Shown in pieces: positions 20,101-23,596 of a DNA stretch of 33,127 bases. The first letter of the stretch is position 1. Each line of letters opens with the position of its first letter. This DNA comes from a virus. The position numbers were made by a program, and so were the translations under genes. The stretch lies in IMG/VR virus record IMGVR_UViG_3300032240_001991, positions 1 to 33,127 of that record; one strand, given 5' to 3'. The notes under the pieces are model-generated. The model searched no databases. It was not told where the DNA came from and saw nothing but the letters and a program-made list of their open reading frames with translations.

Positions 20101-20694
20101 ATGACAAAGAATTTTAAAGAATATCTTGCAGAAAGTTGCAAAAAATGGGACTTCCGTATCAAAGTTGCGGGCGAATTTAATGAAGAAAAAGTTAAAACAA
20201 TGGAAGCTTTACTTAATAAATTCCAAGTTTCTAAATTTAAGAAAGTAGGTACTACTCCAATTCAGTCGTTACCTTTAGACTTTCCTAAGATTAGATTTGC
20301 TGAAGTTACAATTTTTGAAGCTGTAGTTGATTATCCAACTACTCAAATGGAATTGCAGGAATATCTTTGCACAAGTTTAGGCATTACAAAAGATGCATTA
20401 GTTGTTCGTCGTCCAGGAGAGCCATCTGAATCTTATCAAGAACCGCATGAGCCTCACGAAGGTGCATTATTAACTGATAGTGAATACAAAGAAGTTAAGA
20501 ATGCTAAGTTTGACGAGTACTACGGGGACAAGTATAACGAAAGTTTTCTTAAAGAATTAAACGATGTTCTTAAACTCCAGCGTAAAGCTCGAGGAGAAGA
20601 AATTCCTTCAGAAACTAAGGTTCACTTTAATACCGATGACAAGCCTAATAATAAAAGTCCTGTAGAACAGGCTGCAGATCCAAGAAAAAAGTAA
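20101..20694 (+). CDS. Unknown late protein with capsid-targeting-like N-terminus
   Basis: 197 residues, no family function known. It begins M-T-K-N-F-K-E-Y-L-A-E-S, strikingly like the T4 internal-protein capsid-targeting peptide M-K-T-Y-Q-E-F-I-A-E-A, with L-A-E/S in the place where the gp21 protease would cut. An alpha/beta domain follows (WDFRIKVAGEFNEEKVK, PKIRFAEVTIFEAVVDYP, TTQMELQEYLC), with repeated edge strands reminiscent of a ferredoxin-like fold, then a Pro/Glu-rich linker and a charged C-terminus. It has its own late promoter and lies between terminase subunits. A protein packaged in the head or working at assembly is plausible from position and N-terminus only. Confidence 0.6.
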   Translation: MTKNFKEYLAESCKKWDFRIKVAGEFNEEKVKTMEALLNKFQVSKFKKVGTTPIQSLPLDFPKIRFAEVTIFEAVVDYPTTQMELQEYLCTSLGITKDALVVRRPGEPSESYQEPHEPHEGALLTDSEYKEVKNAKFDEYYGDKYNESFLKELNDVLKLQRKARGEEIPSETKVHFNTDDKPNNKSPVEQAADPRKK

Positions 20695-20696
20695 TC

Positions 20697-21365
20697 ATGA
20701 AAAAAACAACATCAAAGATAAAAAAAGAAGCAACAGTGACCTTTACAAAAAACGGTAAAGACATGACCCGTCCGGGCGGCGAACTTGATGTTGAATCTGA
20801 TCCTTTTACAACTAACGAACAAAACAAGAGAGAAAATACCATGGAAAATTTAGACACTAACGCATTGAAATACCTAGCAGGGGTTACAAAAACTATTACA
20901 GAATGCGGAATTCCAATGGCAGGTTCTCATTCTCCCGCAAGCATTAATATTACAGCTAGCAATGGACCAGAACTAACTGGCATGCTTAAGGATCTTATGG
21001 GTTTAGCAGGTATTCATAAATCAGCTGATCCTACAGCAGTGCTAACAACTACTCCAGGTCCAACTATGGCCGCAGCAGATACGGCAGAACCTAGAGAAAT
21101 GCCTTCTATGCAAGATTTAATTAAGAAGGTAACCGGCGGTGAACCAAATCCAGAAATGGTACAAGATAGTATGAACGATAATCGTGTTTATGATAATAGT
21201 CCAGATGAACAAGGTAAAGCAGATAGCAACTGGCCAATTGACGGTGATCGAGATAACAACTTGGTAGCAAACAAAGACATGGTAGTTGATAGAAATAAAG
21301 TAACTGCTGAGAGTTTATTTGCTGCGTACCAAGAATTTATTGCCGAAAATAAAAAAAAAGTTTAA
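20697..21365 (+). CDS. Unknown late protein ending at an A9 slippery tract
   Basis: 222 residues from the ATG 2 nt after the preceding stop; an internal ATG at 20841 (MENLDTNALKYLAG) is an alternative start. The N-terminus is Lys/Thr-rich; the centre is Ala/Thr/Pro-rich with MKDL-type helices (GMLKDLMGLAG, MQDLIKKVTGG); the acidic C-terminal part contains DNNLVANKDMVVDRNK and ends E-S-L-F-A-A-Y-Q-E-F-I-A-E-N-K-K-K-V. The A-Y-Q-E-F-I-A-E stretch matches the T4 capsid-targeting motif but here sits at the C-terminus. The last Lys codons are a run of nine A, where a -1 shift would continue into the next frame and give a 422-residue fusion. No function recognised. Confidence 0.6.
   Translation: MKKTTSKIKKEATVTFTKNGKDMTRPGGELDVESDPFTTNEQNKRENTMENLDTNALKYLAGVTKTITECGIPMAGSHSPASINITASNGPELTGMLKDLMGLAGIHKSADPTAVLTTTPGPTMAAADTAEPREMPSMQDLIKKVTGGEPNPEMVQDSMNDNRVYDNSPDEQGKADSNWPIDGDRDNNLVANKDMVVDRNKVTAESLFAAYQEFIAENKKKV
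21351..21359 (+). other. Nine-A slippery tract, candidate -1 frameshift / transcriptional slippage site
   Basis: Zero-frame codons are AAA AAA AAA GTT TAA. The -1 frame is closed by TAA at 21350-21352 and then open through to 21964, so only a shift inside this tract joins the frames. The tract includes a canonical A AAA AAA heptamer. A missing A in the assembly would look the same. Confidence 0.5.
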
Positions 21366-21964
21366 TTGAACATATAAACATTCGATTAAAAAATATTTTA
21401 AAAAAATACGGCGAAACACTTGGTGATACAACAACACTATCAATTCCTGTAACTGGAATCAATATACATGGGCAGCCTGTTACGGGTCTGTCATTAGTAC
21501 TAACAAAAGATGATGAGGATGATTTAGAATATTCAGGGGCCGGGTTAAATATATCGTACGACACTAATCTGCCTGAAAATGAAGCATTAGAACTTGTTCA
21601 AGCCATATACGAAGACGGCGCACTCCCTGCAGAAATAAAAAGATTTTTGATTATTTGCGGATTTAGTAAAAGGTCTATAGACTCATGCTTTACGAGTGAA
21701 TCTGGAATGCAAGACATTGGATATGCACATTACGATGCTGAGTCTTTAGAAAAAGAAATTGCTGATTTATTAATTGCCAATAACAAAAAAACTGAAGGCA
21801 TAGACATTTTTGGTGACGAGGACGATGTTGATGACACTGACGAACTTGCGCCAGACGAAACTTTAAAACTTTATAGATGTCCTACTTGCAAACGCCCTAA
21901 TTCTATAACAAGAAAAGATTTGCGGTACGGCATGAGTTGCGACGATTGCGAAACAGATATGTAA
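21365..21964 (+). CDS. Acidic protein with C-terminal zinc ribbon; start unclear, probably reached by frameshift
   Basis: The open frame runs from 21353 to the TAA at 21962-21964 but has no ATG, GTG or TTG until a TTG at 21647, deep inside the coding pattern. I give 21365 (an ATT codon at the upstream stop) as a nominal start. Reading from there: a basic amphipathic segment (NIRLKNILKKYGETLGD), strands SIPVTGINIHGQPVTGLSLVLTK, an acidic patch (KDDEDDLEYSG), helices (ENEALELVQAIYEDG), another acidic run (DEDDVDDTDEL) and a C-terminal zinc ribbon C-P-T-C ... C-D-D-C. The most economical reading is that it is the second half of a fusion made by -1 slippage at 21351-21359. No family function recognised. 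Confidence 0.55.
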   Translation: MEHINIRLKNILKKYGETLGDTTTLSIPVTGINIHGQPVTGLSLVLTKDDEDDLEYSGAGLNISYDTNLPENEALELVQAIYEDGALPAEIKRFLIICGFSKRSIDSCFTSESGMQDIGYAHYDAESLEKEIADLLIANNKKTEGIDIFGDEDDVDDTDELAPDETLKLYRCPTCKRPNSITRKDLRYGMSCDDCETDM

Positions 21965-21993
21965 ATAAATTACCAAATAGCTGCATTTCTTTG

Positions 21994-22001
21994 ATTAAAT
22001 A
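21994..22001 (+). promoter_or_regulatory. Late promoter octamer ATTAAATA for gp17
   Basis: It ends 5 nt before the gp17 ATG, the same spacing as at gp13 and the gp54-like gene, which places the predicted start on the A of the ATG. No clear Shine-Dalgarno sequence is present. Confidence 0.55.
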
Positions 22002-22006
22002 TAGGT

Positions 22007-23596
22007 ATGGCTAGTAAAAATCTTGACGGCGCCCTTGTTAAAAAGGCTCATACTAAACAACGATGGACTGAAAAAAATATTCAAGATCTGATGTTATGTC
22101 AAGATCCTGAAAACGGTCCAGAGTATTTTCTTAATAATTTCTTCTTTATTCAACATCCTACCCAAGGTAAGATACAATATAAAGCATACGAATATCAAAA
22201 AGAATTACTAGACAGCTATAATCTTCATCGTTTTAGTGTAAACATGCTAGGACGACAGATGGGTAAGACAACTACTGCGGTAGGCTTCTTACTATGGTAC
22301 GCTATGTTTATGGACAATAGCACTATTTTAATTGCCGCACACAAATATACAGGTGCACAAGAAATTATGCAACGTTTGCGATATGCATACGAAATGTGTC
22401 CTGATTTTATTCGAGCAGGTGTTACAAGTTATAATAAACAAAGTATTGAATTTGAAAACGGCAGTCGAATTGTAGCGCAAACGACTACTGAAACAACAGG
22501 ACGCGGTATGTCTGTTTCGTTATTATACTGCGACGAGTTTGCCTACGTTGAACCTAATATTGCTGTTGAATTTTGGACTTCAATTAGTCCTACGCTAGCA
22601 ACAGGTGGTAAAGCAATTATTACTTCTACTCCTAATAGCGACGAAGATCAGTTTGCTCAAATTTGGAATGAAGCTAATAAGAGATTTGACGAATACGGCA
22701 ATGAACAAACTCTAGGTCGAAACGGATTTTATCCTTATAAAGCAGTATGGAGTCAGCATCCTGATAGAGACGAAGTATGGGCTAATACAGAACGCAGTCG
22801 TGTAGGAGACGAGAGATTCCGCCGTGAGCACGAATGTGAATTCTTAGTATTTGATGAAACCTTAATTAATAGTATTAGTTTGTTAGATTTAGAAGGGCGA
22901 GATCCAATAATGAAAATGGGACAAGCTCGTTGGTACAAGAAAATTAATCCTGCAAGCACTTATATTTTTAGTCTAGACCCTAGTTTAGGCACAGGGGGAG
23001 ACTATGCTGCTATTGAAGTAATAGAAGTTCCTAGCATGGAGCAGGTAGCAGAATGGCATCATAACACCACTCCAATACAGTCACAGGTAAGAATACTAAA
23101 GGACATGATTAAGCATGTTGATGATCAGTGCACAGCAATGGGTGTAACTAGTAGCATTTACTATTCTGTAGAAAATAACTCAGTTGGTGAAAGCGCACTA
23201 GTATCTATCAACGAATTAGGTGAAGAAAGTTTTCCTGGGTTGTTTCTTAGCGAACCTATTAAAAAAGGGCACGTTAGACGTTTTCGTAGAGGATTCAACA
23301 CTACGCATTCTGCTAAAATTTCAGCATGTGCTAAATTAAAACAATTAATTGAAACAAAGCAGATTACTATTAATAGTAAAACTTTAATAAGTGAACTTAA
23401 AAGTTTCGTAGCAGCAGGAATAACATTTAAAGCTAAGTCTGGGCAGCACGACGACTTGGTATCTAGCTTATTACTATCTATACGTATGATAATGCTTTTG
23501 CAAGACTGGGATCCTTCTATATACGAAAAGATGAGAGACCATACCGGATTAGAAGAACACGACCTACCAATGCCCATTTATATTAGTACATTCTAG
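22007..23596 (+). CDS. gp17: gp17-like terminase large subunit (packaging ATPase/nuclease)
   Basis: 529 residues (T4 gp17 is 610). ATPase domain: Walker A G-R-Q-M-G-K-T-T (82-89), Walker B L-L-Y-C-D-E (172-177, with catalytic E177) and the coupling motif T-S-T-P-N (207-210 region). Nuclease domain (RNase H-like): the first Asp in F-S-L-D-P-S (D324), an acidic E in Y-S-V-E-N (about 389), and H-D-D-L (D482/D483). The enzyme cuts concatemers and drives DNA into the prohead through the portal. It lies one intergenic late promoter away from the frameshifted gene and is separated from gp16 by unrelated genes, unlike the 16-17 pair in T4. Confidence 0.95.
   Translation: MASKNLDGALVKKAHTKQRWTEKNIQDLMLCQDPENGPEYFLNNFFFIQHPTQGKIQYKAYEYQKELLDSYNLHRFSVNMLGRQMGKTTTAVGFLLWYAMFMDNSTILIAAHKYTGAQEIMQRLRYAYEMCPDFIRAGVTSYNKQSIEFENGSRIVAQTTTETTGRGMSVSLLYCDEFAYVEPNIAVEFWTSISPTLATGGKAIITSTPNSDEDQFAQIWNEANKRFDEYGNEQTLGRNGFYPYKAVWSQHPDRDEVWANTERSRVGDERFRREHECEFLVFDETLINSISLLDLEGRDPIMKMGQARWYKKINPASTYIFSLDPSLGTGGDYAAIEVIEVPSMEQVAEWHHNTTPIQSQVRILKDMIKHVDDQCTAMGVTSSIYYSVENNSVGESALVSINELGEESFPGLFLSEPIKKGHVRRFRRGFNTTHSAKISACAKLKQLIETKQITINSKTLISELKSFVAAGITFKAKSGQHDDLVSSLLLSIRMIMLLQDWDPSIYEKMRDHTGLEEHDLPMPIYISTF

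Follow-up and report, generated by a model that had tools for sequence, protein, structure and literature searches.

From its sequence, the terminase-adjacent gene that we call X appears to continue, one frame off, into a tail of 203 codons, and a fusion of X and this tail is well supported. The window analysed here comprises bases 1–33127 of a 326,658-base virus record. We read X as a T4-type jumbo-phage head protein with a cargo tail, exchangeable between phages, behind a motif of the Y-x-x-F-[I/V]-x-E type. The account that we prefer, on which our confidence is evenly divided, is that the tail lies one frame off at a run of nine As (A9) and is reached by slippage in a minority of copies. 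The initial annotation had proposed a -1 fusion at A9: the fusion of the two frames has held up well, ribosomal shifting now looks the weaker mechanism, and a programmed slip was not borne out.

The locus and the reading frames at A9

The terminase large subunit at 22007–23596 (plus strand) is of the T4 gp17 type, as shown by Pfam and PHROG searches, and the named phages that scored best by terminase were Pseudomonas jumbo phages of the PA5oct group (54% identity). Its 5′ side is occupied by a tail-tube-like gene, by one for head closure, by a further head gene at 20101–20694 (plus strand) and by X (20697–21365, plus strand), a head protein of 222 aa in its short form with homologues directly upstream of terminase. 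The 20101–20694 gene begins MTKNFKEYLAES, an N-terminus resembling the T4 capsid-targeting sequence (CTS), and has a weak match (E 0.0027) to phrog_14802, a virion structural protein. PA5oct gp282, in the same place as this gene, is annotated as structural by mass spectrometry. X itself had no Pfam or PHROG match.

X ends AAT AAA AAA AAA GTT TAA, as described in the initial annotation, with its stop one codon past A9 (21351–21359, plus strand), which reads AAA AAA AAA in X's phase. The limits given there for the -1 frame, closed at 21350–21352 and open from 21353 to 21964 (plus strand), proved exact, and so did the claim of a single switch point, the X and -1 frames overlapping only at the tract (10 bases, 21353–21362). 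Thus, a switch from X into the -1 frame, if the two belong together, can take place at the tract only.

The -1 frame runs for 98 codons without ATG, GTG or TTG, in agreement with the gap of about 300 bases noted before, and its first canonical start is the TTG at 21647. CTG is also absent from 21353–21439, and the near-cognate codons are an ATT at 21365–21367 (plus strand), which overlaps X's TAA, an ATA at 21374 and further ATT codons downstream. The 326,658-base record contains 249 greedy frames that reach 150 codons or more, and in only two of them, this one included, does the first ATG, GTG or TTG come at least 50 codons in. The other one, at 192113–192625 on the minus strand, runs antisense to a frame of 383 codons and probably does not represent a gene, which leaves the -1 frame as the sole credible late-start case in the record. 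The -1 frame, with its 203 codons and no internal stop, is coding, and more than a chance opening.

Across the whole record, A or T runs reach a length of nine at three places and never exceed it. In assigned coding sequence we found two sense-strand A-runs of at least nine, compared to a mean of 15.6 and a lowest count of 7 in 100 codon shuffles, and such runs are therefore avoided in coding sequence. Most of the overlap between X and the -1 frame falls within one of them; the other, at 186572, is inside a 737-codon frame and 610 codons before its stop. A9 at X has the features looked for in transcriptional slippage, about nine or more As or Ts within coding sequence and in the right phase (phase 0), and it also contains A_AAA_AAA, a heptamer of the X_XXY_YYZ form used in -1 ribosomal frameshifting, in the zero frame.

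X and its tails in related phages

Related loci were drawn from a terminase scan (best 80 of 412) and an X-profile scan (best 80 of 153), with some contigs common to both. Among the 160 loci, 126 had X and a terminase start, 15 had no terminase start, 10 had a short upstream region and 9 had no X frame found by the script, although each of these 9 had a long frame ending 53–63 bases before terminase. Removal of 36 duplicates and of L048, where the upstream gene had been misassigned as X, from the 126 left 89 distinct loci.

X was a single gene in all 89 of these loci (from the best 80 of 412 terminase matches and the best 80 of 153 X-profile matches). In 84 of the 89 distinct relatives among the matches listed, X carries a motif that fits [YWFH]xx[FY][IVMKL]xE. 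What follows the last motif varied widely among these listed matches: 0–9 residues in 26 of the 84, 10–29 in 4, and 30–368 in 54. All 54 long tails, among the matches listed, run in frame with X, and single linkage at E 1e-4 divides them into 20 groups; in the relative L069, the tail of X contains a repeat of about 50 residues in tandem (TYNDGIEDSIELLKTLSGNSIDYIIDRLQDYQYAYEKK...). A tail module can also recur at the opposite end of X (L019 versus L024 and L028). The variety of tail groups, lengths and module positions shows that the tail of X is exchangeable, and its absence is also common. The relative that best matched the X profile, L149 (a 328,068-base record), reads FVAES-KK and then continues in frame into a different tail; the window's tail had no match at E 10 anywhere in the L149 record.

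A broken junction between X and its tail was found in none of the 89 distinct relatives among the matches listed. When the junction pattern was searched for with 8–11 As allowed, no other contig contained it, in a search from which records very near the window's are possibly absent. The comparison of homologues called for in the initial annotation therefore gave a single continuous gene with many tails in frame, and no conserved broken junction. Homologues with a normal start just past X's stop, which would have spoken against a fusion, did not appear either: none of the 89 distinct loci among the matches listed has a separate gene beginning immediately at the stop of X. Three relatives (L023, L178 and L228) have a gene between X and terminase, in each case with its own ATG and behind X's terminator. 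The gene in L178 was considered as a second late-start frame and rejected on these grounds, and a 60-codon late-start frame beside the inserted gene of L228 was taken for noise. The inserted genes of L178 and L228 differ from those at the same place in a further relative, G051, described below.

An intrinsic terminator begins 13–36 bases past X's stop in 86 of the 89 relatives among the matches listed, compared to 6 of 1,780 shuffled control segments; that of L149 is intact and was found in a separate scan. In the window, no plus-strand terminator was found after X or after the -1 frame. Its left arm, AAATAGCTGC (21975–21984, plus strand), is present 10 bases past the stop of the -1 frame, and the right arm is missing. 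As this remnant follows the -1 frame and not X, the -1 frame occupies the position of a tail, on X's side of the terminator mark, while the inserted genes of the relatives lie beyond it. The terminator control and the check on the antisense frame slightly favour reading the -1 frame as a tail. A conserved AAATAG before terminase was considered as a late promoter and rejected, being the left arm of the terminator. At 21975–22006 of the window, the lost right arm may increase read-through into terminase.

The terminase gene of L149 (L149:4051-6516) carries an in-frame, intein-like insert of about 330 residues in its Walker A motif (GRQMGK...TTTAVG), which the window's terminase lacks. An intron was rejected, as Rfam found none and the frame is continuous.

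The T4-like motif and the tail

The C-terminus of X reads AYQEFIAEN-KKK-V. Its YQEFIAE motif (residues 211–217; 21327–21347, plus strand) is identical to residues 4–10 of the T4 internal proteins IPII and IPIII, which start MKTYQEFIAEA as translated from the T4 record; the N-terminus of IPI differs from these. According to published work on T4 (PMC9026906), ten N-terminal residues are enough to package IPIII, and the gp21 protease cuts after L/I-X-E. X thus shares seven identical residues with the internal-protein CTS, including an ending of the L/I-X-E type, and differs in their place, which is N-terminal in T4 and residues 211–217 of 222 in X. The window's record also encodes an S77 prohead protease of the gp21 type (301775–302197, E 2.4e-25), for which none of 14 control genomes gave a match. 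As the motif resembles the T4 capsid-targeting and prohead-protease site, the tail behind it is, by analogy, probably packed into the head, where it may be cut free.

Elsewhere in the record, an Fe/Mn superoxide dismutase at 87802–88356 (L124:14802-15356; Sod_Fe_C E 4.9e-22, Sod_Fe_N E 1.5e-8) starts with MFNFIKFVTESKKKK, which resembles a capsid-targeting sequence. Judged by this start, it may be a head-packed enzyme.

The tail itself had no close relative in the collections searched. It matched nothing in the named phage records at E 10 and has no second copy in its own record. Its end was described in the initial annotation as a zinc ribbon; CPTC...CDDC can be read there in a zinc-ribbon-like CxxC...CxxC arrangement (21878–21949, plus strand), but the Pfam matches fell far below their cut-offs. 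A match to phrog_6361 (E 0.0034) was dropped, since it covered the C-terminal part only and a search with that family also matched in 10 of 14 control genomes.

When the tail was compared to 50 relative records, a single weak match (L083, E 0.0015) led to a small domain with the core YSEQGMQ, which we call the Y domain. We found it at 29 viral loci as well as in Xanthomonas phage X1, and all but one of these occurrences are single proteins of 112–176 aa. Against a Y profile the -1 frame scored 16.5 bits, the first of 1,117 frames in the record, with the next at 5.2 bits and the best of 2,000 shuffles of the -1 frame at 5.9 bits. The match covers residues 51–134 of the frame (21503–21754, plus strand) and includes the S-E-x-G-M-Q core, and hhalign of the -1 frame to a Y alignment built without it gave 90.8%. 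When all loci were searched in six frames, the Y matches at E 1e-3 did not include the -1 frame, and the Y match of the tail was given by none of the Pfam or PHROG families. The kinship of the tail to the Y domain, as far as sequence comparison goes, is remote. An AlphaFold model of the -1 frame had a mean pLDDT of 63.8; with it, a fold search of the PDB returned nothing at E ≤0.001, and a search of BFVD returned three viral proteins without a named function (E <0.001). The model provides no independent evidence, having been built from the Y alignment.

The one exception among the Y proteins is a 1060-aa gene of G051, which carries the Y domain in frame in a phage whose terminase is 60% identical to the window's. 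This gene is the orthologue of X by its position, directly behind a gene of the 20101 type, and by a shared block INATGEQASELLQMLKIAGL judged by eye. In G051 the Y domain precedes the X core, and in the window it follows it. On these sequence grounds, we consider G051 a direct precedent for an X that carries a Y domain. Three other genes separate the X orthologue of G051 from terminase, a 426-aa gene and two small genes (G051:C1:9991-11271; L146).

The family result is independent of any slip at A9: X is a terminase-adjacent head protein with a T4-like targeting and cleavage motif and exchanged tails (20 groups among the 54 tails listed). With an exchangeable tail behind such a motif, X is likely to be a carrier of head-packed, perhaps host-delivered, proteins, and the tails of X would then make up a list of candidate delivered proteins. 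If A9 slips, it would be a natural means of putting cargo on a minority of copies, and control of cargo dose would become testable.

How the tail may be reached, and known systems

In the account that we prefer, the tail, comprising the Y-type domain and the CxxC end, is out of register by one frame at A9. RNA polymerase would slip on A9, such that some transcripts gain an A; less likely, some ribosomes would shift by -1 on A_AAA_AAA. Most copies would then be the short X and a minority would carry the tail, behind a motif that would take it into the head, where it would possibly be cut free. We infer the slippage in vivo, the packaging, the cleavage and any function of the tail from the sequence. 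A review (PMC5009743) describes nine As or Ts as an efficient slippage site for RNA polymerase in bacteria in vivo, and slippage at some level on the nine As of X is plausible and, indeed, likely. According to the same review, A_AAA_AAA is far less prone to shifting than A_AAA_AAG. Directly downstream of A9 is a hairpin of 10 pairs (-5 kcal/mol, z -2.0; 6 of 200 shuffles were as good), while longer downstream stretches gave folding z values of -1.9 and -1.2, and no Shine-Dalgarno-like stimulator was visible upstream of the tract. RNA-polymerase slippage is therefore favoured, as nine As slip efficiently, A_AAA_AAA shifts poorly and the hairpin is weak. A programmed -1 ribosomal frameshift in its place has the heptamer in the right phase, a stop one codon on and that hairpin directly downstream, but the hairpin is A/U-rich and sits directly at the tract, the upstream stimulator is lacking and the junction is not conserved; we regard this reading as very improbable. 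Programmed recoding of either kind usually shows itself by conservation, and this sign is absent, since the broken junction was found in no other locus among the matches listed. With the broken junction found in one phage alone and no convincing stimulator, a programmed event is not shown. Further points against the preferred account are that members of the family can do without the tail (26 of the 84 relatives listed end 0–9 residues past the motif), that the terminator behind the tail is damaged and that the match to the Y domain is remote.

A serious rival is that A9 has a tenth A in nature, X and its tail forming a single gene and the nine As being an error of the consensus, or else that the assembled variant recently lost a base from the homopolymer, perhaps within a phase-variable population and with no regulatory role. 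Homopolymers are hot spots for mutation and for sequencing error, the frame is continuous in all relatives examined and broken in none among the matches listed, and the tail is dispensable in the family. However, a run of ten As would exceed every A or T run in the record, the -1 frame has stayed open for 203 codons without a stop, and, if the base was truly lost, the remaining nine As should still slip at some level (PMC5009743). We regard this rival as less probable than the preferred account. The tail could instead be a separate gene starting at the ATT of 21365, in a TAATG-like overlap with X's stop and with its translation coupled to that of X. This ATT has the right frame and shares bases with X's TAA, standalone Y proteins of 112–176 aa exist, many of which align with starts near the ATT, and some relatives have a short X. 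Against it, ATG was assigned to 236 of 247 genes (start codons being restricted by rule to ATG, GTG and TTG), the only other of the 249 long frames without an early canonical start is the one antisense to a larger frame, and the genes that relatives have between X and terminase start with ATG and sit behind the terminator. No Shine-Dalgarno-like 4-mer precedes the ATT, although 128 of the 247 genes also lack one, and A9 would be left as a coincidence. A separate gene is thus improbable.

If slippage on A9 is indeed how the tail is reached, the dose of cargo in the capsid might be set during transcription, by slippage between the targeting and cleavage motif and the cargo, and might be switchable by single-base changes in the tract. 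We put this forward tentatively and consider it more doubtful than not. Our literature search found no case of slippage or frameshifting associated with phage heads, internal head proteins or capsid targeting, although one may exist in print.

The closest likeness for the tract is tssM1 of Citrobacter rodentium, in which slippage on poly-A is reported as proved, with 11 As and about 20–25% frameshifting (PMC4256274). There, as in X, the poly-A run lies shortly before a stop and slippage would yield a short and a long form. The two differ in that tssM1 has eleven As, compared to nine in X, and encodes a secretion-system protein rather than a phage head protein; slippage at tssM1 was established from protein and RNA, whereas the slip in the window is predicted from the DNA. 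For gene order, the likeness is to PA5oct, whose gp281 and gp282 occupy the same places before a terminase that is 54% identical, both being annotated as structural by mass spectrometry. PA5oct gp281, in the place of X, is in contrast a continuous gene of 498 aa, and no PA5oct match to X was found by tblastn at E 1, which leaves position as the sole link between gp281 and X. With regard to the motif, the comparison is with T4 IPII and IPIII. In T4 the motif is N-terminal; in X it lies inside a larger protein, close to the end, and here we infer packaging and cleavage. The two systems nevertheless share an identical YQEFIAE, a gp21-type S77 protease and, across phages, different proteins after the motif.
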